Assembly (NCBI RefSeq): GCF_018729255.1
Contig: NZ_CP076063.1
Span: 62,001-126,000, forward strand
DNA from: Cupriavidus sp. EM10
GTDB taxonomy: Bacteria; Pseudomonadota; Gammaproteobacteria; Burkholderiales; Burkholderiaceae
Length of the DNA: 64,000 nt
Direction: 5' to 3'
Of the stretch, positions 27,414-49,147 are shown in pieces; position 1 is the stretch's first letter; each line of letters begins with the position of its first letter. Below the pieces are notes generated by a model. The model saw only the letters and a program-made list of their open reading frames with translations. It made no database searches and was not told where the DNA came from. A program made the position numbers and the translations under genes.

Positions 27414-28967
27414 ATGCCGGCCAACCGGATGACCATGCGCAAAATCAAGGAAGTGCTTCGCCTGAAGTGGGCGTGTGGCCTTTCGCACCGGCAGATCGCT
27501 AGGGCGACGGGTGTGAGTGTTGGCGCCGTTTCGCAGTACGCGGCAATGGCGAAGGCAGCGGGGCTGGATTGGCCGCAGGCGGACAGCCTGAACGAAGATA
27601 CGCTGGAGCAGCGGCTGTTCGGCGCGCAGAAGCCGGCCAACAGCCCGGGCGGGCGGGTGATGCCGGACTTCCCCTATCTGCATCGCGAGTTGCGCCGCAA
27701 GGGCGTGACACTGCAGTTGCTGTGGGAGGAATACCTGGAGGCGAATCCAAACGTCCCCATTTACCAATACACGCAGTTCTGCTGCCGTTACCGGGACTGG
27801 GCAGCGACGCTCAAGCGGTCCATGCGCCAGCAGCACCGCGCCGGCGAGAAGCTGTTTGCTGACTTCGCCGGTCAGATGGTGCCGATTCTGGATGCGGAGG
27901 GCGGCATTGCCTTCGAAGCCAGCATCTTCGTCGCTGTGCTCGGCGCTTCAAATTACACGTACGCGTGCGCCACCCGGGGGCAGACCACTGCCGACTGGAT
28001 CGGGGGAATGGTCTGCGCGATGGAATTCGCCGGCGGCGTGCCCGAGCTGCTTGTTCCGGACAACCCGCGCGCGCTGGTGGCTCGCCCTGACCGATACGAG
28101 CCAGTGCTGTCCCGAACTGCAGAAGACTTCGTTCATCACTACGGCACGGCCATGCTGCCAGCACGGCCACGCAAGCCGCAAGACAAGGCCAAGGTCGAGA
28201 CTGGCGTACTGATCGTCGAGCGGTGGATCCTAGCGCGGCTGCGCAATCACCGCTTCTACAGCTTGGGCGAGCTCAACAAGGCTATCAAGAAGCTCGTCGC
28301 CGACCTGAACGACCGACCGTTCAAGAAGCTGCCTGGCACGCGCCGGGAGTGGTTCGAGCGGTTGGACCGGCCAGTGCTGCGACCGCTGCCGCCGCGGCGC
28401 TACGAAGTTGCAACGTTCAAACAGTGCCGCGTCAACGTCGACTACCACGTCGAGATCGACGGCCACTACTACAGCGTGCCGCATGCCCTGGTGCGCAAGG
28501 CGGTGGAGGCTCGCGTAACTCGCCACACCATCGAGATCCTGTACGGCGGCAAACGGGTGGCGCTGCACGCGCGCAATACCCGCAAGGGCAGCCACAGCAC
28601 GGTCAAGGAACACATGCCGGTGGCCCACCGCGCGCACCTCGAATGGACGCCCGGCCGGCTGCTCAACTGGGCAGCCTCGATTGGGCCCAACGTCGCCGTC
28701 ATCGTCGAATACCAGCTCACCCACAAGAGCCATCCCGAGATGGGCTATCGCGCCTGCCTGGGTCTGCTGAGTCTGGCCAAGAAGTACAGCAAGGAGCGGC
28801 TCGAAGCCGCTTGCGCCCGCGCCGTCGCCATTGGCTCGCTCACGCGTAAGTCTGTGGTCTCCATCCTTGAAAACCATCTGGACCGGCAAGCCACTCTGCC
28901 GGTATCGCAAACCGAGTGGCATTCCCCCATGCACGACAACGTGCGCGGACCCGACTACTACCATTAG
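27414..28967 (+). CDS. istA: IS21-family transposase IstA
   Basis: DDE transposase of 517 aa. An N-terminal helix-turn-helix ([20 protein letters not shown]) is followed by the rve/DDE core: catalytic Asp in [13 protein letters not shown], second Asp in [11 protein letters not shown], and Glu near [19 protein letters not shown]. The C-terminal Mu-transposase-like beta-barrel follows ([20 protein letters not shown]). The start has a ribosome site (AAGGAAGC). istB follows after 7 bp. Confidence 0.93.
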
Positions 28968-28974
28968 GAAAACT

Positions 28975-29730
28975 ATGCTGATGCAACACACCGTCGGCCA
29001 GCTCAAGGCCCTGAAGCTCGACGGGATGGCGCGGGCCTTCGAGGAACAGTCTGCCCTGACCGCCAGCTCCAGCCTGCCGTTCGAAGAACGCTTCTCCATG
29101 CTGGTCGACCGGGAGATTGCTTGGCGTGACACCAGGCGCCTGGAGCGGCTGCTGCGCTCGGCCAAGCTCAAGCACGCCCAGGCATGCCTCGAGGATGTGG
29201 TCTATGACGGCAGCCGCGGTCTTGACCAGCGGCTGGTCGCCAGCCTGGCCAGTTGCGACTGGATCCGCAATGCTCAGAGTCTCATCCTTACCGGGGCGAC
29301 CGGTGCCGGCAAGTCCTGGCTGGCCTGTGCGTTTGCTCAGCAGGCCTGTCGGCAGGGATTCTCTGCGCTCTACCTGCGGGTGCCGCGACTGTTCGAGGAA
29401 CTGCAGATCGCCCACGGCGACGGGAGCTTCACCCGCCGCCTGGCACAGCTCGCGCGCATCGATGTCCTGGTGCTGGACGACTGGGGCCTACAGGAGCCTT
29501 CTAAAAGCGCACGCGGCGATCTGCTGGAAGTTCTGGACGATCGCGTCGGCACCCGCTCGACCATCGTGACCAGCCAGCTCCCGATCGAGCATTGGCACCA
29601 GTGGTTGGATGATCCGACGCTGGCTGACGCCATTCTGGACCGGCTGGTCCACCAGGCGCACAAGGTATCGCTCAAAGGCGAATCCATGCGCAAGCGCTCG
29701 GCTACCGACGTCAAGAAACGGGCATCGTGA
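28975..29730 (+). CDS. istB: IS21-family helper ATPase IstB
   Basis: AAA+ ATPase of 251 aa that assists IstA in target capture and transposition. Walker A is [16 protein letters not shown] (about residue 103), Walker B is [12 protein letters not shown], and sensor-like text [14 protein letters not shown] follows. The N-terminus [20 protein letters not shown] is typical of IstB. The start at 28975 lies 7 bp after istA. Confidence 0.93.
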
Positions 29731-29823
29731 TCACCTACGCTACAATCTCCTGACCGCGCAGTACCACCTTCCTTCCCTGATCACGTTCGCCGAAACCGCT
29801 GATCACCTTCACCGAAATCCGCA

Positions 29824-29831
29824 GCCGGCGG
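29824..29831. repeat. IS21 target-site duplication, right copy
   Basis: GCCGGCGG, pairs with 27128-27135. Confidence 0.9.
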
Positions 29832-30525
29832 CGTGCTCACACAGGGTCTGGCGCAATGGCATGGTCATCAGGGTGGCGTTGCCGGCGGCGGCCAGCAAGT
29901 GGTCCAGGCAGGCCTGCAGCTCGTCGATGCTCGCACTCTCCAGCGCCAGACGGCAGCGGATGCGGCTGCCCAGCGGGATCAGGTCCTCGCGGCTGAACTT
30001 CTCCGGCAGGCGAGCGTCGCCGGCAAGCACCACGCACAGCAGCAATTGCGAGTCGAAGCGTGCCTGTGCGAGCAGGCGCAGTTCCGAGAGGGCTGGCACC
30101 GCCATCTCCTGGGCTTCATCGATGAGCAGCACGCAGCGGCGGCGGCTGGCCTCCATGTGGGTGAGCCAGCGCTCGCGCAGCGCCTTGAAGCCGCCCCAGC
30201 GATTGTGGGGCTTGAGCGGTACGGTAAAGATGTCGCTGAGCTCGCGATAGAAGTCCGCCAGATTGCTCTGTGGGTGAGCGATCGAGCCGACCATCAGATC
30301 GGGGACGCGCATGAGGCGCTGATGGAGCAGGCGCAGCGTGACGCTCTTGCCGCAACCGGGGTCGCCATGCACCATGGCGAAGCCGCCTTCGCGGGCCATA
30401 CCGTTCTCAATGCGCCAGCAGAAGTGATCGAGCTTGGGTGGCACGAACACGGCCTCGACGGGGATGTCCTGGGCGAAGGGGTTGAACTTCAGACCGTACA
30501 AGGCCAGCAGGTTGGGTTGATTCAT
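29824..30525 (-). pseudogene. 5' part of transposon AAA ATPase (ExeA/TniB-like), split by IS21
   Basis: Encodes MNQPNLLALYGLKFNPFAQD, Walker A GDPGCGKSVTLRLLH, Walker B CVLLIDEAQEMAVPALSELR and an AAA lid, ending in CEHAAG at the IS21 junction. The family pairs with DDE transposases to choose and hold target DNA. The start overlaps the transposase stop by 4 bp. The missing 3' end is present at 26996-27127, in frame once the IS is removed. As it stands the ATPase loses about its last 45 residues. Confidence 0.88.
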
Positions 30526-31961
30526 AGCTTGGTGGGTGCGGGTGGGAGATAGGCCGGCGGCAGGCCGGTGGCGGCGTGTTCGGCGAGCAACTGACGCAGC
30601 AGCGGCGCAGTGCCAGCCTGCGCGGGTTCCTCGTTAGCAGGCGAGGCACCCTTGGCCGTGAGATGCGCGCGCCGTGCGTCGGCATTGGCAGACTTGTCCA
30701 GCGGGAACACGGCGGCCAGGATCGCGCCGATGCGCGCATCGATCAGGTCGACTTGGGAGAGATCCCAGCGCGCGTAGCTCAGGCAGACTTGCTCGAGGTG
30801 GCGGTAAGCGCCGGGGATCTCGAAGCGCACGCCGTCCAACGTGAAGGTGCCGTCGGTTCTGCGCTGGCGGCGATGCTGGCGGATACGGAAGGCCCGGCGC
30901 AAGGCCAGCGCCTCGGGACTGGGGCGCGAGACGTCGGCACAGGACAGGTAGCGCTGCAGAGGCGTCGCCTCGAGTTCGGCGTGTTCCTTGTGGTGGTATT
31001 CCTGCTCGACCCAGGCCTGCGTGGCGAGGTTCAATTGCTCCAGGGTGAGGTGCGACTCACCTTCGAGCATGGCCATCAGCCGGGACTCGAGCTGTCCCCA
31101 GAAGCGTTCCTGCTTGGCATTCTGGTATGGGCTGTAGGGCAAGGTAGTCTGGTGCAGGATGCCCAGACTGGCCAGCCCCTCGACGAACTCGTCGGCCATC
31201 ATGGCTGCGCCGTTATCGGTCATGATGGCCCGCGGCAGCCCTCGCTTCATGATCGCCTGCGAGACGCCGTGCACCAGCGAGGCAGTGGTCTCGTCGAGGA
31301 ACCACTGCAGGTGGCAGACCAGCCGCGAATGGTCGTCCATAATGCAGAGCAGCAGCGGCTTGTGCCACTGCCCATCGGGGGTGAGCACCTTGCGCGAACC
31401 ATGGTGGAAGTCCAGGTGCCAGAGCGCGGCCACGTGGTCGACCTCGTAGCTACGCACCTCGCGTGCCTCGCGGCGAGCCGCAGCAGCGATGGCCCCATCC
31501 GTGCTCGAGCGCGGGGTTGGCTTGCGCACCAGACCCTGCGCCTTCAGATACCGGCACACCGTGGTGTAGGACGGCAGCGTGTCCGGGCCATCCTTGGTCG
31601 CGACGCGCAGGTTGTCGTAATGCAACTGCATGGTCCAGCCGGGGTGCTGACGGTACTGCTCGACCAGCGCTTCGATGATGGCTGGGCTCAGACTGACGAA
31701 GTGGCCGCAATCGTCGCGCAGTCGGTTCTTGAGTTGATCGACCGGATCCTGGACGTGACGGGCCCGGTAATACCAGCGTTCGATGGAAGACGCGCCGAAC
31801 TGAACGTCGGCGCCGGTGATGGGGTGCCGCCAGACCTTGGCGGCCAGTGCCTGGAACGCTTGCTGCAATTCTCCTTTGGCAGGCGGCGAAGCCAGCAAAG
31901 GGCCAATGACCGAGAAGCGCAAGCGCGCCCATCGGTTGCGATGATCAATCGATAGTGACAT
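30522..31961 (-). CDS. DDE transposase of the TniA/TniB-like transposon
   Basis: A 479-aa integrase-core transposase. The catalytic residues are visible as Asp in ALWHLDFHHGSRKV, Asp in AIMTDNGAAMMAD and Glu in YQNAKQERFWGQLES. An N-terminal DNA-binding region precedes the core, and a C-terminal basic tail (FRIRQHRRQRRTDG) follows. It overlaps the ATPase gene by 4 bp. The arrangement is analogous to TniA-TniB or IstA-IstB, but it belongs to neither exactly. The frame is intact. Confidence 0.85.
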   Translation of the reverse strand: MSLSIDHRNRWARLRFSVIGPLLASPPAKGELQQAFQALAAKVWRHPITGADVQFGASSIERWYYRARHVQDPVDQLKNRLRDDCGHFVSLSPAIIEALVEQYRQHPGWTMQLHYDNLRVATKDGPDTLPSYTTVCRYLKAQGLVRKPTPRSSTDGAIAAAARREAREVRSYEVDHVAALWHLDFHHGSRKVLTPDGQWHKPLLLCIMDDHSRLVCHLQWFLDETTASLVHGVSQAIMKRGLPRAIMTDNGAAMMADEFVEGLASLGILHQTTLPYSPYQNAKQERFWGQLESRLMAMLEGESHLTLEQLNLATQAWVEQEYHHKEHAELEATPLQRYLSCADVSRPSPEALALRRAFRIRQHRRQRRTDGTFTLDGVRFEIPGAYRHLEQVCLSYARWDLSQVDLIDARIGAILAAVFPLDKSANADARRAHLTAKGASPANEEPAQAGTAPLLRQLLAEHAATGLPPAYLPPAPTKL

Positions 31962-32071
31962 GACTCTCCGTTGGGGGATAACGGGAGCAGGCTACGGGCA
32001 GTGCGGGTGACCCGCCATCGACATGTTCTGCGGGAGATTCCCCTATCTGGCGCATCCCTCAGCCAGCGTGG

Positions 32072-32710
32072 TCAGGCCGGGCCCAGCAGCAGAAGCAACA
32101 CCGCGGCCAGACGCTCGTCTTCGCTGTCGTGCTCGACCGATTGCAGCAGGCAGTCGGGATAGATGAACGGCTCGGGCGTTGGCGGGATGAGGCCACGCAG
32201 CCACCGACCGACGGGGGTCTTGGGGAAGGTCTCGGTCCACCACTGACGCCAGCGCTTGAGCGTGGCCCAACTGATCGCCGGCAGGCCGTCCAGGCAGGCG
32301 CCAGTGGCACGGCTCGATCGCAGTACCAGGACAATGGCCAGCCAGACACGCCGGCCGAGAAAGCGCACCGAATCGGGCGTCATGCGTTTGCGGCATCCGG
32401 CACAGCACAGGCTCAGGCGCGTATTGCAGTCCGGGTGTGCTGCCGGTGGGCATCCGCGCGGCTTACGCGGATAGTTGGCACTGTGCAGCACAGAGCCGCA
32501 ATGGCAGCAGCCCCTGTCTCGCGCCACCTTCATCAAGTCTTCGTCGATCCGGCGCAACAGGGCAAAAACGCTGGCGTTTGTAGCAAGGCATGGCACACTG
32601 CTGAGGTCTCCTTCATTGCTCGACACAATAAAGGCGACATCTTCCCTCAGGCGCGTGCATGCACGCTCCCTGAGGGAACCCCTCCAGCGTCCATCACCGT
32701 TCTTGCTCAA
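32072..32710 (-). CDS. Zinc-finger accessory protein of the transposon
   Basis: About 212 aa. The core DRGCCHCGSVLHSANYPRKP and LSLCCAGCRKRMTPDSVRFL shows two Cys pairs of a zinc-binding domain, followed by a helical part (ATLKRWRQWWTETFPKTPVG). It lies upstream of the DDE transposase on the same strand. The likely start may be further downstream (a Met at KVARDRG, residue 60), since the first 55 residues overlap the element's end. It probably helps DNA binding or target choice, which is an inference from position. Confidence 0.7.
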   Translation of the reverse strand: MSKNGDGRWRGSLRERACTRLREDVAFIVSSNEGDLSSVPCLATNASVFALLRRIDEDLMKVARDRGCCHCGSVLHSANYPRKPRGCPPAAHPDCNTRLSLCCAGCRKRMTPDSVRFLGRRVWLAIVLVLRSSRATGACLDGLPAISWATLKRWRQWWTETFPKTPVGRWLRGLIPPTPEPFIYPDCLLQSVEHDSEDERLAAVLLLLLGPA

Positions 32711-32728
32711 ATCCCCACGCTTTCGGCA

Positions 32729-32911
32729 TCACGAAAGCTGCTTATGCACAGGCAATTCCCCGAACGGATTAAGTTCGAGATAGTCCGCCGACTCATGTTG
32801 TTGGCCAACATAGTCCACACTGACTTTCTCATAGGGAACGCTCAGCATGTTCAAGAGAAGTCGAATCTTGTAGCAACTTCCCGACAGCTCAAAATCATGT
32901 AAGCGAATCAT
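32729..32911 (-). pseudogene. Glutathione S-transferase-like (NdmE-like) N-terminal fragment
   Basis: MIRLHDFELSGSCYKIRLLL and LELNPFGELPV are the N-terminal thioredoxin fold of a GST-like protein, very similar to the NdmE-like protein at 35082-35755 (MITLYDYELSGNCYKVRLLL). After ELPV the frame enters transposon DNA and stops (HKQLS). The remaining about 150 residues are gone. The gene was cut by the transposon. It lies beyond the terminator that ends the frmB operon. Confidence 0.8.
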
Positions 32912-33001: not shown

Positions 33002-33858
33002 TCAAGAACCTAACTCAGAGGCGTGATGCCTGAGGTGGTCCTCCATGAAGGAAGAAATAAAGTAGTAGCCGTGGTCATACCCAGGATGTTTGCGCAGCCT
33101 CAGCGGTTGGCCTGCTATCTCGCATGCTGCGCGGAGAGTCTCCGGATACAACTGTTCTTCCAGGAATTTGTCATCAAGTCCTTGGTCGATCAGTATTCCG
33201 CCTGGGAAGACGGCGCGCCCGGCTCGCCGAATCAGCAGCGTCGCGTCGTAGTCCGTCCACTTACTTTGCTCAACGCCGAGATATCGAGTGAAGGCTTTGA
33301 TACCCCATGGGCATGCCACCGGGTTGGCAATTGGCGCAAACGCCGAGACGGATCGAAACTGGTCCGGATTCCGCAAAGCGATCACCAGAGCGCCGTGACC
33401 ACCCATCGAGTGCCCGAAGATTCCGACCCGTCGTTGATCGACAGGGAAGTTCTCCATTACCTCGCTGAAGAGCTCGCGGACAACGTAGCTATACATGCGG
33501 TAGTTTGTGGCCCATGGCGCGTCTGTGGCATCGACGTAGAAGCCCGCTGCCACACCAAAGTCCCAACTCTCCCGATCTCCTGCAATCTCGACCCCTCTCG
33601 GGCTCGTGTCGGGGGCCACCAACACCAAACCAAGCTCAGAGGCGACCCGTTGAGCGCCAGACTTCGTCGCAAACGTCTCCTCCGTGCAGGTAAGCCCAGC
33701 CAGATAGAAGAGCGCCGGGCAGCGCTCCCTCTCAAGGCTTGCGGCGGCAAGTACACCGAGAAGCGCATGCTGGTCCCGGTCTCCTTGGATGCGTGCTCGT
33801 AGAACCGTTGCAGGCCGCCGAAGCAGGCGTGCTCAGATACTGGCTTCAAGTTGCTCAT
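33002..33858 (-). CDS. frmB: S-formylglutathione hydrolase FrmB, frameshifted
   Basis: Esterase-D-family enzyme that hydrolyses S-formylglutathione to formate and glutathione, the second step of formaldehyde detoxification. Marks are the nucleophile Ser in [16 protein letters not shown], Asp in [16 protein letters not shown] and His in [15 protein letters not shown]. The start [20 protein letters not shown] is typical. The frame breaks near 33730 (one T lost) between LPPQAL and [16 protein letters not shown]. The merged length of about 285 aa is normal. It follows frmA by 8 bp. Confidence 0.88.
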
Positions 33859-33866
33859 GATGGTAC

Positions 33867-34979
33867 CTAGTAGAGCACCACCGAACGGATCGACTCGCCG
33901 CTCTTCATCAGATCGAAGGCGTCGTTGATCGATTCCAGCGGAAGCCTGTGGGTAATCAGATCGTCAATGTTCAGTTTCCCTTCCATGTACCAGTCGACGA
34001 TCTTCGGCACATCCGTCCGACCACGAGCGCCACCGAATGCAGAGCCCTTCCACTCACGACCTGTCACCAACTGGAACGGACGAGTCGAGATTTCGGCGCC
34101 GGCCTCGGCGACACCGATGACAATGGATTTGCCCCAACCCTTGTGGCAGCACTCCAGTGCCTGGCGCATGACCTTCGTATTGCCGATGCACTCGAAGGAA
34201 TAGTCTGCGCCTCCGTCTGTCAATTGGATGATGTGATCGACGACGTTTTCAACGTCCCTCGGGTTCACAAAGTGGGTCATGCCGAATTTCCGAGCCATTG
34301 CTTCCCGACCAGGGTTCAAGTCGACCCCAATGATCTTGTTGGCGCCGACCATCTTGGCTGCCTGAATAACGTTCAGCCCGATCCCGCCCAAACCAAATAC
34401 CACCACGTTCGCACCGGCCTCCACCTTTGCCGTGAACAGCACTGCGCCTACACCGGTCGTCACGCCGCAGCCGATATAGCAGACCTTGTCGAAAGGGGCG
34501 TCCGGGCGAATCTTTGCGAGGGCGATTTCGGGAACCACGATATGGTTCGCGAAGGTCGACGTCCCCATGTAGTGGAAGATCGGCGTGCCGTCGATCGAGA
34601 AGCGCGCCGTGCCATCGGGCATGAGACCCTTGCCCTGTGTTGCACGAATCGACTGACAGAGATTCGTCTTCTGCGACAGGCAGAACTTGCACTGCCGGCA
34701 TTCCGGCGTGTACAGAGGGATCACGTGATCGCCTGGCTTGAGCGAGGTCACGCCATGCCCAACTTCCGTCACGATACCGGCACCTTCGTGGCCCAGGATG
34801 GCGGGGAAGATACCCTCGGGATCTGCGCCCGAGAGTGTGTAGTAGTCGGTGTGGCATACACCCGTTGCTTTGATCTCGACGAGCACCTCGCCAGCTCGCG
34901 GACCCGCCAGGTCCACTTCTTCAACGCTAAGGGGGGCGCCAGCTTTCCAGGCAATAGCAGCTTTCGTTTTCATCTTCAA
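33867..34979 (-). CDS. frmA: S-(hydroxymethyl)glutathione dehydrogenase (class III ADH) FrmA
   Basis: Zinc- and NAD-dependent enzyme that oxidises the glutathione adduct of formaldehyde, 370 aa. Catalytic zinc ligands lie in [13 protein letters not shown] and [12 protein letters not shown]; the structural zinc has four Cys in [18 protein letters not shown]. The NAD site is [16 protein letters not shown]. In methylxanthine degraders frmA and frmB remove the formaldehyde released by N-demethylation, and that is the setting here. A start at 34973 is also possible. Confidence 0.93.
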
Positions 34980-35081
34980 ATAACCTTCCGATTGAGATAT
35001 CTAAGAATTGAGCGGTATCCCGCGCAGGGCAGGCGTGCCATCAAGTCGCTTCGATGGCACGCCTGCGGACAGACAATTCAT

Positions 35082-35755
35082 TCAACGCATCGCAACTACA
35101 GCCGCTGCTGGCTCGTCGAGCTGACGTGAAGTGGGAAAAACGCCGGACATCACGATGAAGCCGGGTAGCCGCTTGATCTGATCGGTCCACCGACGGACTG
35201 CGGGGTAATCGCCGAGCGATACGCCACCCTCATCGGACAAAGCGATATATGGGAAGCACGCAATATCCGCAATCGTGGGGTGCGAAGCGTCGCAAAGAAA
35301 CTTCCCGCCCATTTGCTCGCGCCGCCAAAGGTGTTCATCCAGTATGCGCAGCAACTCGTGGGACCTCTTCCTGCAAGCTTCAGCATCAAAGTCGAAGAAA
35401 AACAGATCATGAAGACGCGCCGCAGAAATGGAGCCGGTCAGGCTATCTGCGAAAGACAGCCACATTTGCACTTCACCCGCAAGGCGGGCATCGCTGACCG
35501 GGTACCAAAGGTTCGACGTGTCGTAACGCTTGGCCAAATAGACAAGAATCGCCTGCGCGTCCCGAATCGAAAATCGCCGTCCGTCAGTGCCGGTAGCTGC
35601 CCCAAGGGATTGACCCGCAAGAATGCGTCGGACTTGTGCTGTCTGCTTGGGTAGAACTCGACCGGTTCGTTCTGGTAGTCAATTCCCAGAATGTTGAGCA
35701 ACAGACGAACCTTGTAGCAGTTGCCGGATAGCTCGTAGTCGTAAAGCGTAATCAT
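35082..35755 (-). CDS. ndmE: GST-like protein NdmE, frameshifted
   Basis: GST-fold protein of about 224 aa. N-terminal thioredoxin domain: MITLYDYELSGNCYKVRLLL and RVNPLGQLPALTDGDF. C-terminal helical domain: RYDTSNLWYPVSDARLAGEV then HPTIADIACFPYIALSDEGG. The frame breaks near 35575, where one T lost from a T run explains the shift to AQAILVYLAKRYD. In Pseudomonas putida CBB5 NdmE is a GST-like structural partner needed for the soluble NdmC-NdmD-NdmE complex. The order ndmC-ndmD-ndmE on one strand supports that identity. Confidence 0.8.
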
Positions 35756-35766
35756 GGGGGTTCTCT

Positions 35767-37517
35767 TTAAATGTCCAGGACGATCTTGCCGTTCTTGCAA
35801 CGCGACACGCACGGCATGATCCACTTCCCGCTTTCGCGCTCCGCCTTGGAGAGATACGTGTCATGGTGCTCCAGGTCGCCACTGAGGACGCCGGTCATGC
35901 AGGTTCCGCAGACGCCCTGCTCGCAGGATGCCTCGATGGTTACCCCGTTCTCCCAGCACGCCTTCAGCAGGCTCTTGTCTGACGGCACACTGAAAGACTT
36001 TCCGGACTTGGCGAGTTCCACCTCGAACGAATCGCCGCCCGTCGGGATGTCGTCATTCTTGAAAAGTTCGAAGCGAATGGACTCTTCGGGGATGCCCCGC
36101 GCCGCGGCAACTTCGCTTACGCAGTTGATCATCACCCCCGGCCCGCATGTGTAAACCTCTGTTTGGGCAGGGTCTACGGCGGCGAGCATGGCCATCAGCT
36201 TCTCGCGAGTCGCAACGCCATCCAGGCCTGCGTAAAGATGGACGCTCGGACCCAAGTCGCGCAAGCGCTCGCCGAATGGCGAATGCTCTGCTCCCCTGAC
36301 AAAGTAGTGCAACTCAAAGTCATCGCCTCCAGCCTGCAGCGCCTGGGCCATGGCGAGAATCGGTGTTATGCCAATGCCGCCGGCGATAAGTACCGGGCGC
36401 TTTCCGTTTCGAATAAGAGGGAACGCATTGCGTGGTACCGTAATGGAGAGTTCGGTTCCCTCCTTCACCTGCGCATGCATGGATTCGGAACCGCCCCGGG
36501 ACATCGCCTCGCGCTTTACGCCGATGATGAATGAGTCACGCTCACTTGGACTGTTGACCACGGAGTATTGCCGTACACATCCAGCCGGGGTAGTCACGCT
36601 GATATGCATGCCAGGCGAGAGCTGCGGCATCGTCCGGCCCTTAGGCTTCAGCCACAGCGAGATAATGTCTTCGGTTTCCTGCAGGCGGGCGGTGACTTCG
36701 CATTTGAATTCGGTTGACGCAGGCCGAGGGAACGGCACCACCACCGCAGGCACTTCCGCTGCAACCGGCGCCGTCGCATGGATTTCTCGATCTTCGGCGC
36801 ACTGGCATGCGTCGCCTCCATTGCGCGGCGGAACTCCGTAAGAATCGTTGAGAAGTGAGTCCTGAAACCCACGGTCGCGGTATTCGCCGCGAAGACCATT
36901 GTGTGCACGATGCACTTCTGCCCAGAGGTCGGCTGCAGAAGGAACACCAATACCTTCGACTCCTGGTGTCGTTCGATTCGAATCAATCCGTCTGCAATCA
37001 CTTCGGCGCGCGACTCGCCATCCAGTACTTCCGAGAATCGGTTGGCCTGTGCAAGCAACGCTTCGCTGACTTCTTCTTGCGATGCATTGATCGGAAGGCT
37101 GCGAAGGCCTGTCCGGACCTGCCCGGGATAGCCCAGTTGCAGGGCTTCAGGTTCGACCAGCGGCGTTCCGAGAGACGCCCATACCAACCCGTCCTTTTCG
37201 GACACGGCGAAGGTGGCAACGCAAGCAGAGCTCGGCTCAGTTGCTTCGCGGTGGGCGGGAACGAAAGTGCAACCACCGCTGCCGGTCTCATACGTCCACC
37301 CGTGATACTGGCACCTCAGTTCGTTACCGAGGTTCACGCCCAGCGACAGGCGTAGCCCGCGATGAGGGCAACGGTTCTCCCAGGCATTGACCATGCCATT
37401 GTCATCGCGCCAAAGGGCGAGTTCTTGACCTGCGAGGCTTGTCTGATAAACGTGGCGCGACGGAAGATCCGTGGCACTGGCGATCGGATACCAGCGATTC
37501 GTATCTAATGATTTCAT
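35767..37517 (-). CDS. ndmD: NdmD-like Rieske-reductase fusion, frameshifted
   Basis: NADH-dependent reductase that feeds electrons to the Ndm oxygenases. It has an extra N-terminal Rieske domain (C50-P-H52 ... C69-x2-H72 in ENRCPHRG and LRCQYHGW), then a middle domain, a flavin/NAD part (RQYSVVNSPSERDSFIIGVK; VLIAGGIGITPILAMAQALQ) and a C-terminal plant-type ferredoxin (CEQGVCGTC ... C). The frame breaks near 36790: KIEKS becomes HATAPVAAEVPAVVVPFPRP when an A is restored. The merged length, about 583 aa, fits NdmD. The internal Rieske domain is the family's unusual hallmark. Confidence 0.87.
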
Positions 37518-37542
37518 TTTGGAGGACTCTCTATTCGTTCGC

Positions 37543-38396
37543 TCAACCGCGAATCGCGCCGTAGTGCAAGTCGCTTTCGCGAAGCCACCTGCGGTAAGCG
37601 GTTGCAAGTACGTCTGCTCGGACAGGGTTCTCACGACTGGCCGCTAACGGCAGCCGTTTGGGAACCTGGTTGATCAAGATCATCAGATCCTGCCCAAAAA
37701 TCGTCTGCTGAAAGCGACGAAGCTGTTCGTCGGAGTTGATATCGTCGACGTAGCACATGATCGTGTGCGCGATACACCAGTCCTCATCGACAGGCTGTAC
37801 GAACAAGCAGAGGACATCCCAACGCTGCGGATCCGGAGGACAGGTCTTGTAAAGGATGGCAACGTTGGGGCGCGTCACGCGGTAGACGTACTGGGTCTCG
37901 ATGGGCTCGACCGCTGTGGCCGACGCACGGGGCTGAGCGAATCGACACTCCGTGGCGATGACTTCATCCAGTTCTTCGTCGATCCGTACGTTGTAAGGCA
38001 GCACCTCGGTGAGCGGTTCAGCACCAAGGATGTCCGTATGCACGAACGGAAAATGTGCCATGTCCAAGAATTTTCGATGGCGCGAAGCCCCGACACATTT
38101 ACGCGCGTCGATCCAGCGCTGACAACCCGACGATCTGCTTCCGCAAACTCTGGCACCGGAAACAAGTCGCGTGGCGATGACGAGAACGAAAACCACAGCG
38201 TTCCGTAGGCACGCTTGCATGACACCGGCCGAACAATGCCCTCGTCGGTCCAGTTTGCCTGGATCTCGCCATCGGGCGACACGTCGTATGTCACCGAGCG
38301 GCCGAGCAGCCGCGTTAGATATTGCCGGCTGGGAAGAACATCCTCCAGCGCCGCAACGGGATGCCAATCTTCGAACAGCACCTGATCTGCTTTCAC
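37543..38396 (-). CDS. ndmC: NdmC-like methylxanthine N7-demethylase catalytic subunit, frameshifted
   Basis: A Rieske-oxygenase alpha-type protein of about 284 aa that keeps the mononuclear-iron site (IENFLDMAHFPFVHTD: D-x2-H-x4-H) but lacks any CxH...CxxH Rieske motif. In P. putida CBB5 NdmC is such a Rieske-less enzyme and uses the Rieske centre of NdmD. A GTG start with AGGAGGGCA is chosen at 38396. The frame breaks near 38065 (one T lost). The order ndmC-D-E-frmAB on one strand suggests one operon, with a CTGGTATACCAG operator 34 bp upstream of the start. Confidence 0.82.
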
Positions 38397-38429
38397 TGCC
38401 CTCCTGCCGTGGCTTGTTAGTTTGCTAAA

Positions 38430-38441
38430 CTGGTATACCAG
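38430..38441 (-). promoter_or_regulatory. GntR/FCD-type operator before ndmC
   Basis: Perfect 12-bp palindrome CTGGTATACCAG, 34 bp upstream of the ndmC start. It fits the TNGTNNNACNA pattern of FadR/FCD-class GntR regulators. The same word occurs at 39553-39564, with variants at 39280-39291 and 44893-44904. Confidence 0.75.
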
Positions 38442-38573
38442 AATGTATATCAGAAGAACCCAAAGCGCAAAGCAGTTTGCACTTGGGGAAAATACTTAGC
38501 GGGAGAATTGCCGAGATACGGCGTGAAGTAGACCAGGGCCGCTCAAGGCGGCCGGGTCTATTGCGAGGACAGC

Positions 38574-39234
38574 TTAGATGGCGAGGACAGCTTTGAGGTC
38601 GATCTCAGGAGGTGCGGAGGCGTCGAATCGGTAACCTCTGATCACCAGGTTGTAGTGCGATGCCAGCAACTCTTTGGCCGCAGTGGCGTCTTTCTTCTCG
38701 AGGCACTCCACGAGCTTCCCGTGCTCGTCGCGCAGTTGGCAGTAGTCAAAGCCAACACGGAACATCGCGTTGATCAGCGCTTCGCGGCGTCGCAGTTGCG
38801 AGTGAATTTGGTTCAGTGTCTCGTTGTTCAAAAAGGACAGCAGGAGAGAGTGAAATTCCCGCCCAAGCTTGTCCCCTGGTCGTGCTTCCCCTTCTCGAAT
38901 GCAACCCGTTCCTTCCCCGTATGCGCCCGCAGCGCTTTGAGTTGTTCGGGAGTGATGATCTTGATCACTTGGTCGATCACGCCACTCTCGAGCACCAGGA
39001 GCATTTGGTAGAGTTCAAACGCGTCGTCGAAAGTCGGCCGCCAGACAGATGAAGAGCGCTTGGGGAGATTTCTACCAGCCCGTCTTGCGACAAGCGGATA
39101 AGCGCCTGCCGGACGACTGTGCGACTGACGCCAAACAAATCCGCAATGTCTCGCTCGTTCAGCTTTGTCCCCGGCGGAAGACGACGGTGGTAGATCGCAT
39201 CGGAGATGGTGCCTACAATTTTCTGGGTTAGCAT
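38574..39234 (-). CDS. GntR family (FadR/FCD) regulator, frameshifted twice
   Basis: DNA-binding regulator of about 220 aa, divergent from ndmB. The winged HTH reads KLNERDIADLFGVSRTVVRQ then RLSQDGLVEIS. The C-terminal FCD effector domain includes DDAFELYQMLLVLESGVIDQ and FHSLLLSFLNNETLNQIHSQ, continuing to HYNLVIRGYRFDA. Frameshifts near 39068 and 38867 (one C, one G lost from runs) break the frame. The window's operator palindromes are the expected target type. It most likely controls the demethylation genes, with a methylxanthine or product as ligand. Confidence 0.8.
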
Positions 39235-39279
39235 GATGTTGTCGCGTGACTGCTACCGTCGGCTCGGCGCAGCAATTGT

Positions 39280-39291
39280 CTGGTCGACCAG
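39280..39291. promoter_or_regulatory. GntR operator variant upstream of the GntR gene
   Basis: CTGGTCGACCAG, a perfect palindrome with the same arms as the 38430 and 39553 sites but a CG centre. It lies 46 bp before the GntR start, so autoregulation is likely. The 39235-39634 gap holds this, the next operator and no gene. Confidence 0.6.
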
Positions 39292-39552
39292 AATTTCTAG
39301 ATGGTACATCAAGCGCGTCATTTGGCACTAAAGCTGTGACGCGCCGCACCAAGATGGGCTAGCTCCCGCGGCTGCATACCCGTTCTCGTGCATGGTTAGC
39401 CGAGAACCAAGGCTACCAACGCTCCTCACGGCCACGTCCCAACGGAACGTCCGTCCCCCTGACCATGGCACAGTTCGTGCCATATCCCGAAGCAAGTGAG
39501 CATCCCCAAGACGGGTAATCCCTGATTGCCGGTCCAAATTACGCTCTATAGT

Positions 39553-39564
39553 CTGGTATACCAG
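39553..39564 (+). promoter_or_regulatory. GntR operator before ndmB
   Basis: CTGGTATACCAG, identical to 38430-38441. It overlaps the downstream side of a possible -10 (TATAGT at 39547-39552), placing it at the transcription start of ndmB, 71 bp before the start codon. Confidence 0.75.
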
Positions 39565-39634
39565 ATAAGACATTTGGCTTCCCAGAGTAGTAGTTTTGGC
39601 TTCACAAAACAGATCCCCCACTGGAGCTTCGATC

Positions 39635-40707
39635 ATGAACGAGCAGTACAGGCCTCTTCTCGAGGACAAGACTTATCTCCGCCACTTCTGGCATCCGGTT
39701 TGCACCGTGGCTGAATTCGAACGCGCCAATGCGTCCGGCCATGGTCCGATGGCCATCACGCTGTTGGGCGAGTCCATCGTACTGGCTCGCTTGAATGGAA
39801 AGCTCGTGGCCGCGAGCGACCGTTGCGCGCACCGATCAGCCAAGCTCTCTCTTGGCAGGGTGAGCAAGCGAGACGGGAAAGACTTCCTGGCTTGTCCCTA
39901 TCACGGATGGCAATACGACAACGAAGGGATTTGCAAGCTTGTCCCCGCTTGCCCGGAAAAGGCCATTCCTCCCGCGCCAAGCTGAATGCCTACGAGTGCG
40001 AGGTGAAATACTCGATCGTATGGGTACGTCTCGACAATAGCTTCGACTGTACTGAGATCCCGTACTTCAGTGATTGGGACAAGCCCGGCATGCAGACGAT
40101 CGTCGCCGACTCCTATCTGTGGAACACGGTCGCCGAGCGACGCTGGGAAAACTTCACCGACTTTTCGCACTTCGCGTTCGTTCATCCGGGCACTCTGTAC
40201 GACCCGTTCTTTGCCAGCCACCCTGCCGTGCAGGTCAACCGAATCGACGGAGAGTTGCAGTTCAAGCTGGCTCCGCCTCGTGAAATGGAAGGCATCCCTG
40301 AAGAGGCGCCGATGGGAGACTTCGACTACCGATGCACGATGCCGTACGGGATCAACCTCGAGATCAAGCTCTGGAAGGACAACTCACGGTTCGTGTTGTG
40401 GACAACAGCGTCCCCAGTGGACGACAAGACCTGCCGCAACTTCATGATCATCGCTCGCGAGACCGATGGTCAGCCGGACCACATGCACCTTGCGTTCCAG
40501 AAACGCGTCCTGGAAGAGGATCAGCCGGTAATTCAATCGCAATGGCCTGCCGAGATCTCGGCAGGCGAGATATCCGTCGCCACTGACAAGGTCTCTATCC
40601 AGTATCGCAAATGGCACCGCGAACTCTGTCAAGCCGCTCTCCGTGGCAAGGAGGAGTTCCAGGCAGTACTGCGATCCAACGTCATCGACGAGTCGACGAC
40701 TCTGTAG
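39635..40707 (+). CDS. ndmB: NdmB-like methylxanthine N3-demethylase, frameshifted
   Basis: Rieske oxygenase that removes the N3-methyl group of theobromine and 3-methylxanthine, releasing formaldehyde. MNEQYRPLLEDKTYLRHFWH, the Rieske motif (C64-A-H66 ... C87-P-Y-H90), DNSFDCTEIPYFSDWD and the iron motif NFTDFSHFAFVHPGTLYD match NdmB of Pseudomonas putida CBB5 from memory, strongly. The frame breaks near 39978 (one base lost in a C run: IPPAP becomes AKLNAYECEVKYSIVWVRLD). The merged length of about 357 aa is as expected. No ndmA is seen, so caffeine's N1-demethylation may be absent. Confidence 0.88.
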
Positions 40708-40735
40708 TCAAAAGCATCCGAAAAGAGGAGTTCCA

Positions 40736-41828
40736 ATGAAGCCAATGTTCCTGCTCGGCTGTGCCGGTCGAGGCGTACAACCATCTTCCATCGAGGCGCC
40801 GGTATCTGAAATCGAGCTGCCGGTAATGGAGCAATTTCGCCTGCAGAAGGAAAGCGGGCTGTGGGACTTCGTCGACCGTATCCCTGCGAGTGACAAAGAG
40901 CTGGACGAATATATCAAGGCGAGCCAGCACTACAATCTGCCAGTGCTGACGGGAAGCTGGACCTATACCCTGGGTGTCGACGAAGACAAGATCAAGGCAA
41001 CATCGAGCGCACGCGCGAAGTCGATGCCAAATTCCATAACCTCATGGTTTGGGCCAAACATGCGGACGGCCATTATGTGACCGACGAAGAGGTTGCTGTT
41101 TCGTACTTGAATACGTACGAGTACGCTGAAGCCCGCGGCATCACGGTCACGTACGAAAGCCACGTTGACATGTGGTCCGAGGACTTCCGCCGTGTCTTGA
41201 AGGTTGCCGGCCTGGTGGAGAAGCAAGGCGTTCCCTTCAACTTCTGCATGGACTACAGCCATTGCATCTTCAAGATCGAAAACGAAGTTGAGCACGCGGT
41301 ATCACAGATGCGAGGCGATGCCGAAGCCATCAGGAAGCTGGACCCGTTCAACGATGACAGCTTCGCCGATGAATGGCTGCAGCGCAACATGGTTCATTGG
41401 ACGCAAGTCCGTCCGGCCGCCCTAATGGCCCCGTGAACTGGCTGGCCTTCGAGTCAGGTCCTTGGGATGGCCTGGGCTACGACCGTCCAGGTCGGTCGAT
41501 CCAGTATCCGTTCAGCTTGCCGAAGCCTGGCGAATGGCATACCGACGTATGGCATGCGCACAAGCTGGCATGCACCAAAGAGCTGGTTCGCAAGGTCATC
41601 GATCAGTATCTCTCGACCGATGACTCGAACATGCGCGTCATGACCATCGACAACATCAACCTTGGAGCGTACGGCCTGGGTTGGGGATATGACATGTTTG
41701 CCGATAGCTGTCTGGTCGCTACATTCGTTCGTGAGCTCTATGCGGAGCGCTCGGCAATCTTCGAAGCGAAGAAGGGCAAGACGGCGTCAGAGTTTGTTGA
41801 TCAGTATCGCGGCAATATCGCCCGCTGA
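40736..41828 (+). CDS. Xylose-isomerase-like TIM-barrel protein of the ndm cluster, frameshifted twice
   Basis: A protein of about 363 aa in the same orientation as ndmB and 28 bp downstream. Sugar-phosphate isomerase/epimerase (AP-endonuclease-2-type TIM barrel) features: EARGITVTYESHVDMWSEDF (Glu and His ligands) and CMDYSHCIF (Asp and His). Frameshifts near 41000 and 41420 are repairable by adding one base in a G and a C run. A terminator follows at 41881. No demethylation role is known for this fold; it may act on a downstream purine or ring-opened product, which is a guess. Confidence 0.6.
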
Positions 41829-41880
41829 ATGTATTCGGCTGGCGATAGCCAGCATGCACCGATCCGTGTAGTAGGGGTTA

Positions 41881-41912
41881 GCGAGGGCTCCATGCCCTCG
41901 CCCTTTTTTAGG
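41881..41912 (+). terminator. Terminator after the TIM-barrel gene
   Basis: GCGAGGGC / GCCCTCGC stem with a short loop and TTTTTTA run, about 55 bp past the stop. Confidence 0.8.
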
Positions 41913-42028
41913 AAAAGGCGCTCAACCCTAAGGCGACGATCTTTCCTCCGCCTCACGACTTTCAGCCTCCCCATGCTTCGCAAATGCAAGCGGCCAGTCC
42001 AAAGACTGGCCGACCTTGTCGTGTGCTG

Positions 42029-43112
42029 TCAGAACTTGTGACGGATGCCAACTCCGGCTGTGTCACCATGAGCCTGCCCGGTCAACTTGTCGTAGTAGTA
42101 GGCAGCGTATAGATCCGTCCGTTTCGACAGGTTGTAGTCGTACGCGATCGATCCCGTGTTTCGCCGGAAGGAAGCAATGTCGTTTTCCGACTTACCGTAG
42201 GCGTAAGTGAGGAGCAGGCTACCAGCGCCTATCGGAATCGCGACGCCGGCTAAGGCATCAATGTGCTTCAGATTCCCGGAAGGGCCGTTCACGTCCGACT
42301 TGATGTACTGCCCTTGAGCGTAAACTTTGACAACGCTGAAGTCGTAGCTGATGCCCGCCTGCGCCGCGTTCTGTTTGCGGAAGCCAACAAGCGAACCTGG
42401 AGAGGTGACATCACCTGGCGTTGTGTTGAATTTGACCTGCTGAAACGCAACGGTGGCAGCGAGGGGGCCCTTGAAGTAGGTGACATTTCCGCCCCACTTA
42501 TTCTGGCCGATGGAACCTGGTTGCTCACCGAACGCGTAAATTGCGTTGAAGGTCAACCCGTTGAAATTGGGAGTGGAGTAGACGACAGAATTGACCCAGC
42601 CGGTGTCACCCAAGATGCCTGGATCGAATAACGTGCCGTTGTTTGCAGAGAGGTAGGTGTGGCTAATTGCCGGCCCGAAGACATATGAGTCGATCATCGG
42701 GTTGAAAAGGATGGTAGAGACAAAGTAGGGTGTTGTGTTACGACCCAGTCGGACGGTGCCGTAGCTTGAGTTTCCATGCCCACATAAGCGTTGCGGGCAA
42801 AGAATGGTTCTCCATCGTAGCTCCCGCCTTTCCCGGTATCCACCCGCAGAAACGCATTGAGGTCGAAAATCGCCTTTGTACCGCCACCAAGGTCTTCGGT
42901 GCCTTTGATCCCCAGTAGGACGTCTGCATGCCCCCGCCGCCAACGATGTATGACCGAGCACTCCCTGGTGTTCGCGTTGTGCCGATGTAGCTATCGACCT
43001 GTCCATACAACGTTACGCTGGACTGCGCCATCGCGCTGCTCGCCAACATCGCTCCCGAGAAGAATGTGAGCGTGGCGACCCGAGTGTTCCTGAATCGAAA
43101 TTGAGTTTTCAT
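42029..43112 (-). CDS. Porin of the ndm cluster, frameshifted
   Basis: Gram-negative porin of about 360 aa. Signal peptide and first strand: MKTQFRFRNTRVATLTFFSG, then SSVTLYGQVDSYIGT. C-terminal strands end TAGVGIRHKF with terminal Phe. Between them the frame changes at about 42918 and 42760: YWG, then GIKGTEDLGGGTKAIFDLNA in a second frame, then TVRLGRNTTPYF in a third. In methylxanthine degraders a porin is often part of the cluster and may admit the substrate; that is inferred here from position beside ndmB and the permease. Confidence 0.75.
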
Positions 43113-43250
43113 GGCTCTAAGGTGAGGATTGATACTTCCGGAAATCGTCCCTCGATCCTCTCAAGCGTCGCCTTTACCGTTCAAAAATGACATCAAATAG
43201 GCAAAGGACTCCCCTTGCGACCTCCGGATAAAGGTCTCAGCACGAGAGGT

Positions 43251-43273
43251 CCATCGCACAAAGAGTGCGATGG
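43251..43273 (-). terminator. Hairpin after the permease gene
   Basis: CCATCGCA / TGCGATGG stem with a seven-base loop, about 20 bp past the permease stop on the minus strand. No long T-run is visible, so termination is only likely. Confidence 0.45.
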
Positions 43274-43290
43274 CGATTCGAGGGGAATTG

Positions 43291-44633
43291 TTAGAGGTCT
43301 GCTTCTTTGGCGGTCGCCATCAGTGAAGCTCGTGCTTCCTTTGCGTCACCGAGTCCGTTGAAGAAGATGTTCAGGAGAATTGCCGAGATAGCCGTTAGAA
43401 GGATCGGACTCTCCAGGATTGGAGCAAGCTCGTGTGGAAGCCGCGAGAAGAATTTCGGCGACACGACAGGAAGCATGCCTAGCGCGATGCTGATGGCAAC
43501 GATGTACAGGTTCTTTACGTTGTGAAAATCCACACGAGCCAGCACTTTGATGCCGCTCGCAGTGACCATGCCGAACATCACGATACCGGCACCACCAAGA
43601 ACGAACGGTGGAATCGACGCAACGAGGACAGCGACTTTTGGAAACAGGCCCAGGACCATCAAGATGACGCCGGCGGTAGCACATACCCAACGGCTCCTGA
43701 CCCCGGTAACGCTGACCAAGCCAACGTTCTGCGCATAGGATGTGTAGGGGAACGTATTGAAGATGCCCCCAATCATCGTGCCAACGCCATCGGCGCGGAA
43801 TCCCCGAACTAAGTCCTTCTCCGAGACCGGCTTCTCGACGATCTCACCAAGTGCGAGAAACATGCCCGTCGACTCAATAAACGTCACCAGCATCACGATG
43901 CACATCGCTGCAATGGGCCAGAAGCTGAACTTTGGCGCGCCAAAGTGGAACGGCAGAATGAAACCGAACCAAGGTGCCTCGTTCAGTTCTCCGAGGGATA
44001 CTTGTCCAGCAGCTCCGGAAATGAGAAAGCCGATGGCCAGACCAAGCAAGATGGCAATGTTGTTGAGAAATCCGCGGGTGTACCGCACCAACAGAAGAAT
44101 CGATACCAGGACGGTAGCTGCAATACCAAGGTAGAGCGGATTGCCGAAGTCGGGGTTGCCGAATCCTCCTGCTGACCAGGCGGCAGCTACAACCATGAGC
44201 GACAACCCAACAGCGAGAATCTCCGTACCGGTTACGACCGGCGGGAAAAACCTCAAGAGTTTCCCAACAAGTGGGGCAACGACTATCCCAAACAGACCAG
44301 CACCAATCGTGGCACCAAAGATGCCAAGCAGACCAGCGTTGGGATCGCTGCCGATAGCGATCATCGGTCCAATTGCCGTGAACGTCACGCCCATCATTAC
44401 GGGAAGACGGATACCGAATAGACCAACACCCAGTGACTGGATGATGGTAGCCAAGCCGCATGCAAAAAGGTCCGCATTGATCAGGAAGGCGACCTGCTCC
44501 TTCGGCAGCTTCAGGGCTGCGCCAAGCACCAGTGGGATCGCCACCGCACCTGCATACATCACCATCACGTGCTGACAGCCGAGAATCAGGAGAGGCAGGC
44601 CTCCCAATTTTTATCAACGCCACTCGGTTGCAT
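43291..44633 (-). CDS. NCS2-family xanthine/purine permease, N-terminus frameshifted
   Basis: A 12-13-TM proton symporter of about 447 aa for xanthine, uric acid or methylxanthines. Family marks are LGCQHVMVMYAGAVAIPLVL and the conserved QN-x-G motif YTSYAQNVGLVSVTGVRSR. The true start is ATG at 44633, after GGAGATTC (MQPSGVDK...). One A is lost from an A run near 44615, shifting the frame to GGLPLLILG. It probably brings methylxanthine or xanthine into the cell, or recycles it; no purine is proven by sequence. Confidence 0.83.
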
Positions 44634-44892
44634 TTCGAATCTCCAAAGTAAATGAAACAGTTCGACGACCTCCTGGAAATAGGAAGGCGTCCCAGTTCCG
44701 TGCACTGGAGAGGGGTGGGAATCTAGGCCTGATGTTTTGGGGGCTCTATTTTTTACTGCACGTGTCACGTGGACACGTTCGATCCAGCCAACCGACCGGA
44801 CACCTCTCGAGGGGTGCCTCGTTCCGACAGGTTCGGATCGGGGCTCTGGTCAGGCGTGCATGATCACTCCTCTGGTTCACCAATCATATGTT

Positions 44893-44904
44893 TAGGTATA
44901 CCAG
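44893..44904 (-). promoter_or_regulatory. GntR operator variant upstream of the permease
   Basis: TAGGTATACCAG, with GGTATACC as the same core as the two perfect sites. It lies 260 bp before the permease start. The 44634-45330 stretch holds no other recognised feature. Confidence 0.5.
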
Positions 44905-45329
44905 ATTAGCAGATCTAATGTGCCGAAGATAACTACCGTGATAGGTGTTTTCCCGACGAGCGGGCGCGGTGCAAATGGAGGGCTACTTTTGCTGTATTGG
45001 TGCGCTAGGCACTGTTACAGGGCGCCTGGCGTGGCAATCGATGAGCGGTTGAAAGCGTCCAGGAGAGACTTTGCAAGTCTCGACTTTTCGTACAGATCGA
45101 TGTCCGCTCTGCGACTAGATCCTGCCGACTAAGGGAGGAGCTACAAGCGACCGTGTTGGGTCGTTCTGAGACCGTCACCCACCGCGCAGATCGGTGAAGC
45201 CGAACGGATGGACGCACGGTCGTCGTTAGTGCAGAGATAAGCTTGATTATCCCTGTACTATCATTTCGGTACGAAACTCGCTTTCGTCGAAATACCCGAC
45301 ACCCGCCCACGCCAGAAAGTTTCTCAAGG

Positions 45330-46377: not shown

Positions 46378-46667
46378 CGTATCCTCCTCTACGGTCTGGC
46401 AGGAGAGTCGGATAGGGGCCATTTCACTGAAGCCGCGACTCCGCAGCCATTACAATCAACGTGCCACATCCGAGCCGCCTCAGTCGGGCGGTGGTCCCTG
46501 GCTTTATTCCTCGCTAGTTCGGGCGCCGACACGCATGTCAGCCTCATAACTGTCCTCAGTTGCCCGAAGCATTGGCGCCGAGGCTAGCCGGACCAGTTCG
46601 TCTATTGACTATCCCATCAACTCTGACTGGCAAGACAGATTTCGTCGCCTGCATTGGACAGTCAGTA

Positions 46668-46976: not shown

Positions 46977-47067
46977 GGTTCGCCTCCAATCAAGTGTCCG
47001 GTGCCTGGCCAAATCCCTCCGCGTCTAGGACACTCCCCAAGCCCGGACGCGTATGGCGTCGGCTGGC

Positions 47068-49147
<2,080 letters not shown>

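Follow-up and report, generated by a model that had tools for sequence, protein, structure and literature searches.

A plasmid-borne, ndmA-less methylxanthine N-demethylation cluster predicted in Cupriavidus sp. EM10

The genome of Cupriavidus sp. EM10 carries a gene cluster for the N-demethylation of methylxanthines in which nine of the ten genes are frameshifted in the assembly; frmA alone is untouched, and the permease gene is shifted only near its start. Is this a decaying island or a working cluster, which methylxanthines would it convert, and has it moved between species? The stretch analysed, called the window below, comprises 64,000 nucleotides (C4:62001-126000) of a four-contig genome of 6,658,510 bases. 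Contig C4, which carries the ndm cluster, is 213,624 bases long and plasmid-like, and a KfrA-like plasmid protein is encoded within the window. From the sequence comparisons, we consider it highly probable that the cluster is an intact, plasmid-borne, and recently moved methylxanthine N-demethylation cluster without ndmA, which would convert theobromine and 7-methylxanthine to xanthine. The pathway itself is known; the additions are its ndmA-less plasmid form, the recent transfer, the fold and co-occurrence of the orf5 product, and a predicted operator.

Gene content and predicted substrates

The cluster spans positions 33002 to 44904 and comprises ndmB, ndmC, ndmD, ndmE, frmA, frmB, a GntR/FCD regulator gene, a permease gene, a porin gene, and an orf5-like gene. 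The original prediction, made from the letters of the window, had named all of these but the last, and domain, family, and PDB matches place every one of them where it had been put. The minus-strand run ndmC-ndmD-ndmE-frmA-frmB extends from 38396 down to 33002, with gntR at 39234-38574 on the same strand; it is followed by the plus-strand run ndmB-orf5 from 39635 to 41828 and the minus-strand run permease-porin from 44705 down to 42029. For several of the broken genes, we used the copies of Cupriavidus sp. 2SB, whose contig NZ_SCMX01000077 (L027) contains the same DNA over about 18 kb, is also ndmA-less, and has its frames intact.

The two pieces of ndmB (39635..40707, plus strand, with an in-frame TTG upstream at 39596) have the N3-demethylase NdmB (PDB ID 6icl) as their top PDB match, with 468 and 202 bits, followed by the NdmA chains 6icp and 6ick with 288 and 284 bits for the first piece and 135 bits for the second. 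The next solved Rieske oxygenase is SxtDIOX with only 54 bits, and 46 bits is the next score for the other piece. Both the Rieske motif CxH/CxxH and the D..H....H iron site are present. No other NCBIfam Rieske family exceeds its cut-off for full-length NdmB, the best being 4beta-methylsterol monooxygenase with 47 bits against a cut-off of 600; the benzoate and anthranilate oxygenase models stay far under their cut-offs, as does the glycine betaine model on the pieces.

The product of ndmC (37543..38396, minus strand, two pieces) contains the D..H....H motif, while CxH..CxxH is absent by motif check and the Rieske Pfam domain is not matched. Its C-terminal VanA_C match is to a domain common to the wider oxygenase family, and no NCBIfam family was matched, with no vanillate demethylase model among those listed. 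Aligned over its full length, the 2SB copy shares 71% of its residues with M1EY73, the “Methylxanthine N7-demethylase” of P. putida; the identity of EM10 NdmC to an entry titled “N7-demethylase (plasmid) [Paraburkholderia caffeinilytica]” is likewise 71%. The N-terminal piece of NdmD (35767..37634, minus strand, two pieces) shows the Rieske Pfam domain and motif, and the C-terminal piece an NAD-binding reductase and a plant-type ferredoxin (Fer2) domain. The one NdmD chain among the PDB matches listed, that of the ferredoxin domain (6icm_D), aligns to the last 86 residues with 135 bits, and four longer reductase chains outscore it over the whole C-terminal piece. NdmE (35082..35824, minus strand) is a glutathione S-transferase (GST)-like protein encoded beside ndmD, with GST_N and GST_C matches in two open reading frames; its PDB matches are general GSTs, and UniRef gives the name NdmE to a Pseudomonas protein to which the 2SB copy is 69% identical across 90% of its length.

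The accessory genes are assigned by curated families. FrmA (33867..34979, minus strand, intact), an S-(hydroxymethyl)glutathione dehydrogenase, reaches 630 bits against a TIGR02818 cut-off of 544, and the frameshifted frmB (33002..33858, minus strand), encoding an S-formylglutathione hydrolase, has a Pfam Esterase match in the window and 427 bits for its intact 2SB copy against a TIGR02821 cut-off of 282. The xanthine-type NCS2 permease (43291..44705, minus strand, open from 44607) reaches 532 bits for TIGR03173 (pbuX; cut-off 414). The porin (42029..43112, minus strand) and the regulator (38574..39234, minus strand) are both in pieces, and their Porin_4 and GntR and FCD domains, respectively, were detected on the 2SB copies. 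The features read earlier from signature segments, a Rieske-less NdmC with its iron site, the extra N-terminal Rieske domain of NdmD, a GST-like NdmE, the FrmA/FrmB pair, and a xanthine-type permease with a porin, are thus borne out, and the comparison with other Rieske families leaves NdmB and NdmC closest to the Ndm enzymes.

A rival explanation is that the similarity to the Ndm enzymes is one of family only, the true substrates of these oxygenases being other N-methyl or O-methyl compounds. The substrate assignment does come from homology, and of the 3,332 NdmC-like proteins found at an E-value of 0.001, most of the best 120 have no substrate in their name. Against this stand the steep fall in NdmB scores after NdmA, the conserved specificity pair described below, and the company of genes for a xanthine-type permease and for both formaldehyde enzymes, and we regard other substrates as very improbable.

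The specificity of NdmB can be read from two positions. Compared with NdmA (6ick), chain 6icp carries Gln in place of Asn and Leu in place of Phe in the aligned part, and two changes are described to shift NdmA towards N3 (PMC8055839, citing Kim et al. 2019). From its residues in the alignment, we infer that 6icp is such an NdmA mutant. The Gln/Leu pair occurs at these positions in both NdmB and the window protein. Among 49 NdmA/B-like proteins from 37 loci, 33 have Gln/Leu, 16 have Asn/Phe, and none has another combination; in a maximum-likelihood tree, the two sets lie on opposite sides of one branch with 100/100 support, and the window ndmB, represented by the 2SB copy, falls in the Gln/Leu set. 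This agrees with the N3-demethylase function proposed for it from the sequence. The preferred substrates of CBB5 NdmB are theobromine and 3-methylxanthine, with caffeine hardly converted (PMC10380055).

NdmA was not found in the EM10 genome: a search with the C-terminal NdmB piece at an E-value of 0.001 returned only NdmB and, weakly, NdmC, and one with full-length NdmB at 1e-60 returned only NdmB. The same full-length search recovers the NdmA of Cupriavidus sp. D384 at 9e-135. The absence noted in the original prediction therefore extends over the whole genome assembly, and the cluster that it called complete appears so for theobromine and 7-methylxanthine but not for caffeine.

Could N1-demethylation by another host enzyme, or by NdmB itself, still complete a caffeine pathway? 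Five further Rieske-domain matches lie on the chromosomes, and the slight activity of CBB5 NdmB on caffeine (PMC10380055), a point that weighs against the substrate range proposed here, could yield some paraxanthine. None of the five chromosomal proteins matches the C-terminal NdmB piece at 0.001 or full-length NdmB at 1e-60, and NdmB acts at N3, leaving N1 methylated; a complete caffeine pathway is thus hardly to be expected.

Homology gives good support to the formation of xanthine from theobromine or 7-methylxanthine, in line with the substrates theobromine, 3-methylxanthine, and 7-methylxanthine suggested before. To judge from their families, the porin and permease would admit any of these three compounds. 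NdmB would take off the N3 methyl group, converting theobromine to 7-methylxanthine and 3-methylxanthine to xanthine, and NdmC would remove the N7 methyl group to give xanthine, with its Rieske domain supplied on NdmD and with NdmE as a structural partner. By homology, NdmD would pass electrons from NADH to NdmB and NdmC. These roles of NdmB, NdmC, NdmD, and NdmE are shown for the CBB5 enzymes (PMC4408171, PMC10380055). FrmA and FrmB, again by family, would oxidize formaldehyde to formate, and a chromosomal xanthine dehydrogenase would probably take xanthine further, a subunit of which matches in the genome with 1362 bits (cut-off 849.5). The GntR/FCD protein is predicted to control the four transcription units through a palindromic operator. 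Growth on caffeine through the cluster would not be expected.

The cluster resembles the Alx/ndmABCDE cluster of Pseudomonas putida CBB5 and Pseudomonas sp. NCIM 5235 in ndmB, ndmC, ndmD with its extra Rieske domain, and ndmE, and also shares with it frmA, frmB, a purine permease, a GntR regulator, and, by position, orf5 (PMC4408171, PMC10380055). It differs in lacking ndmA, in having a porin gene, and in lying on a plasmid-like contig. Its gene order also differs from the clusters of Pseudomonas sp. S31 and S37, which are described as identical in arrangement to the Alx cluster (PMC8055839). Plasmid-borne ndm genes are known in the Burkholderiaceae from Paraburkholderia caffeinilytica CF1, whose cluster on a 174-kb plasmid has complete demethylation genes (Sun et al. 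2020 as cited in PMC10380055), unlike the window, which lacks ndmA.

Clusters without ndmA are not confined to EM10. We searched eight other, hand-chosen genomes with NdmA, a choice that gives no frequency estimate. Three contain NdmA at 77-100% identity (D384, B. ambifaria RZ2MS16, and P. caffeinitolerans LMG 28688), and five give only an NdmB-type best match at 53-55% (2SB, C. necator UYPR2.512, Comamonadaceae ALPHA2B, Stutzerimonas xanthomarina PX_067, and S. azotifigens 115A1). C. necator UYPR2.512 carries ndmB, orf5, ndmC, ndmD, and ndmE without ndmA on both pSym (L028) and pplas2 (L037), with NdmB at 95% and the DNA at about 75-80% identity to EM10. On pSym, a degraded 44-residue NdmA C-terminus, 66% identical, is kept some 7 kb past the permease; this favours descent of that lineage from an ancestor with ndmA, followed by loss of the gene. 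No such relic was found in the window, where homology to the region upstream of the pSym permease ends near 44972. PMC8055839 reports no ndmB in any of its strains that carry a subset of the ndm genes, and in the open-access literature we found neither ndmBCDE clusters without ndmA nor caffeine genes of Cupriavidus described before. The ndmA-less form would be a branch of the textbook bacterial caffeine pathway that moves between species and may suit the production of 7-methylxanthine or xanthine from theobromine.

Two of these related loci call for a remark. The second cluster of the pSym strain, on pplas2, shows two-piece matches for each of frmB, frmA, and ndmB and may itself be frameshifted. 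On a contig labelled as a Phycisphaerae metagenome-assembled genome (L041), NdmB is identical to that of Stutzerimonas xanthomarina, probably reflecting binning contamination.

Frameshifts and transfer of the cluster

The window aligns to 2SB in three ordered blocks with 17,964 columns, zero substitutions, and 23 one-base gaps. All 23 gaps are on the window side, and each of the 22 listed singly falls within a homopolymer of 3 to 7 bases. The entire cluster is spanned by the first block, of 12,907 columns with 19 gaps; the counts exclude one 320-column piece at 74% identity in which two Hsp20 paralogues are paired. The same picture is seen outside the 2SB blocks: against pMOL28 of C. metallidurans CH34, the window shows 4,897 columns with no substitution and four one-base gaps, all again on the window side and in runs of 4 or 5. 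The three 16S copies of the genome are 1531, 1530, and 1529 bases long and differ by one-base gaps in runs of 5 and one substitution, and a dnaK copy adjoining the cluster is also frameshifted. Because the gaps are one-sided, confined to homopolymers, and present in ribosomal RNA genes as well, they point to long-read consensus error and not to decay. From the assembled sequence, we infer that the frameshifts are consensus errors and that the genes are intact in the organism. What speaks against this is that true homopolymer slippage in EM10 could lie behind single bases.

The opposite reading would be a decaying pseudogene island with genuine frameshifts, in a strain that can no longer use methylxanthines. 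It draws on the nine genes of ten that are interrupted or shifted near the start, and on a second GST gene beside the cluster that is truncated by a transposon-like element. Decay would be expected to add substitutions and larger deletions within the genes, and the comparison with 2SB shows none of the former against its 23 one-base gaps; the gap-only signature recurs in the pMOL28 segment and one-base gaps between the 16S copies, and the shifted dnaK copy next door belongs to the same pattern. Decay is therefore unlikely, and the intact cluster is the reading we follow. For genome scanning, the case is a warning that homopolymer deletions can give a working cluster a dead look.

Two attempts at a wider frameshift count were set aside. 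A frame-usage hidden Markov model called no frameshift even where homology shows shifts, owing to its penalty settings, and was dropped as a genome-wide count. In a 6-kb chromosome control with 2SB proteins, one gene is seemingly shifted, the match to a 596-residue protein ending in two frames; with the DNA about 84% identical, this evidence is weaker than the other controls and was not counted. Given the 16S homopolymer gaps, gene calls across the EM10 genome, such as L024-L026, probably contain false frameshifts.

The near identity of the cluster DNA stands out against one segment of the host chromosomes, which reaches 84% identity with 2SB over 5.6 kb, plus 322 bases at 89%. A second segment gives scattered matches of 65-91%, the best being 69% over 1.2 kb; it has no clear counterpart and is of little use for judging how far apart the species are. 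We take 2SB and EM10 to be different species, since a one-genome-per-species collection appears to contain both. The substitution-free cluster DNA beside an 84% identical chromosome segment indicates recent movement between two Cupriavidus species. Only 4 of 60 Cupriavidus genomes, EM10 included, have ndmB at an E-value of 1e-60 or better, and one of these four has ndmA, so the trait appears patchy in the genus. The same DNA in a second species supports the ability to spread more directly than the neighbouring elements from which it had been deduced. Weighing against a simple shared segment, 487 window bases (45638-46124) and 178 window bases (46496-46673) beside the cluster have no counterpart in the 2SB contig.

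The position between mobile elements, as first described, holds on the left side only. There, homology to 2SB begins at 32750, where an element with a DDE integrase and an AAA ATPase (29809..32749, minus strand; Pfam rve and AAA_22) abuts the cluster; only its end at 32749/32750 is mapped. It truncates the second GST gene (32750..32911, minus strand, GST_N match), which is intact in 2SB, where the element is absent. An IS21-family istA/istB pair (27414..29730, plus strand; Mu-transpos_C_2 and IstB_IS21) lies beyond it. On the right, the cluster is bordered by a heat-shock gene block, and the nearest transposase-like match noticed is about 10 kb off, at 54.7-58.4 kb by annotation.

The orf5-like gene and a predicted operator

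A gene absent from the original prediction follows ndmB at 40736-41828 on the plus strand, in three pieces, and was located by mapping the 2SB gene, which encodes a 361-364-residue protein, on the window. In the published NCIM 5235 cluster, orf5 occupies the place between the permease and ndmC, with its function given as “unknown” (PMC4408171, PMC10380055). The homologue of the window gene in Pseudomonas sp. S31 and S37 (75%) has this same place between the permease and ndmC, which makes the window gene a putative orf5 counterpart by position. Homologues occur in 19 of the 37 loci, with at least 67% identity in 16. In Cupriavidus, close homologues (at least 87%) are found in exactly the 4 of 60 genomes with ndmB, where they adjoin it, and two further genomes of the genus have homologues at 45-46%.

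The structure model, confident with a predicted local distance difference test (pLDDT) score of 93, has the fold of a xylose-isomerase-like TIM barrel, and the nearest structures are the isomerase Art22, IolE, and ketose 3-epimerases at 9-14% identity. The fold search returns a broad set of isomerases, epimerases, IolE, and C-glycoside-cleaving complexes without singling out one substrate. By sequence, the match to the Pfam AP_endonuc_2 domain (PF01261) reaches 24.5 bits, under the cut-off of 31.1, and this family is assigned to some orf5 homologues in precomputed Pfam annotation; no PDB sequence match at an E-value of 1 and no NCBIfam match was found. The residues invariant in 44 aligned sequences include E138, D170, and H173; residues of this kind bind a metal in the ketose epimerases and may do so here. 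The link to ndmB is tight and the modelled fold is that of sugar isomerases, from which the reaction is not derivable. A gene published as being of unknown function thus gains a predicted fold and a co-occurrence with ndmB in Cupriavidus.

Where other Ndm loci encode a regulator, the gntR product is 75-96% identical to it, except for 36% in L046, and it is likely the counterpart of orf8/CafR of the Pseudomonas clusters. FadR-type operators have the general form TGGT..ACCA. The palindrome TCTGGTNNACCAGA is predicted to be the operator of the GntR/FCD protein: it lies about 33 bp before ndmC (38429..38442, one mismatch), 45 bp before gntR (39279..39292, no mismatch), and 70 bp before the ndmB ATG (39552..39565, no mismatch), and a weaker pair lies 166-200 bp before the permease (44871-44884 and 44892-44905, two mismatches each; 44871..44905 together). 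With up to two mismatches, the window has nine sites against 1.55 expected, a count reached in 0 of 100 shuffles, and five of the nine are those before ndmC, gntR, ndmB, and the permease.

The comparison across loci is stronger evidence. The 12-mer TCTGGTATACCA is present in all ten gntR-ndmB gaps, from Cupriavidus (4), Pandoraea, Caballeronia (2), Paraburkholderia, Burkholderia, and Pseudomonas, and a site with up to one mismatch precedes ndmA in six of nine ndmA-bearing loci (L029, L030, L032, L034, L038, and L039). The whole genome has 23 sites at this stringency against 7 for the reversed pattern, three of them within 1.2 kb in the ndm cluster; 160 kb of chromosome contains none, where only about half a site is expected.

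Several observations weigh against the operator. The pattern was derived from the gntR-ndmB gaps themselves, which makes the window count partly circular, and 20 other places in the genome match it with up to one mismatch. Of the nine ndmA-bearing loci scanned, L035, L036, and L044 have no such site before ndmA, and of 16 sequences scanned, L031 and L044 miss the pattern altogether. A consensus scan of 38380-39700 found no sigma-70-like promoter. We found no relevant paper on a GntR operator of ndm clusters in the open-access literature; the predicted operator could be useful for methylxanthine biosensors.

As a tentative extension, which we judge less likely than not, ndmA may have been lost repeatedly from caffeine clusters, leaving a dedicated mobile theobromine/7-methylxanthine module in which orf5 is a pathway part and one GntR switch acts via TCTGGTNNACCAGA. 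The orf5 product might, for example, act on a demethylation product, on a hydroxymethyl intermediate, or on a sugar-linked or ring-modified methylxanthine.

Neighbouring regions and related loci

To the right of the cluster, window positions 45638-51355 contain Hsp20 genes and the dnaK copy and are common to 2SB without substitutions, except for the 487 and 178 bases described above. Similar heat-shock genes are also found on other Cupriavidus plasmids. Further on, window positions 59108-64000 equal pMOL28 of C. metallidurans CH34 apart from the four one-base gaps, and the annotation of the pMOL28 counterpart names Shedu nuclease, SIR2, and TIGR02391 proteins, suggesting a defence-type block common to both plasmids.

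In a group of related loci (L044, L045, L047, L049, L050, L052-L055, L057-L059, and L063), the Rieske and reductase parts of NdmD match as separate stretches. Other genes often lie between the two parts, and several of the loci encode a second NdmC-like protein; this is perhaps the state of NdmD before the fusion of its parts.

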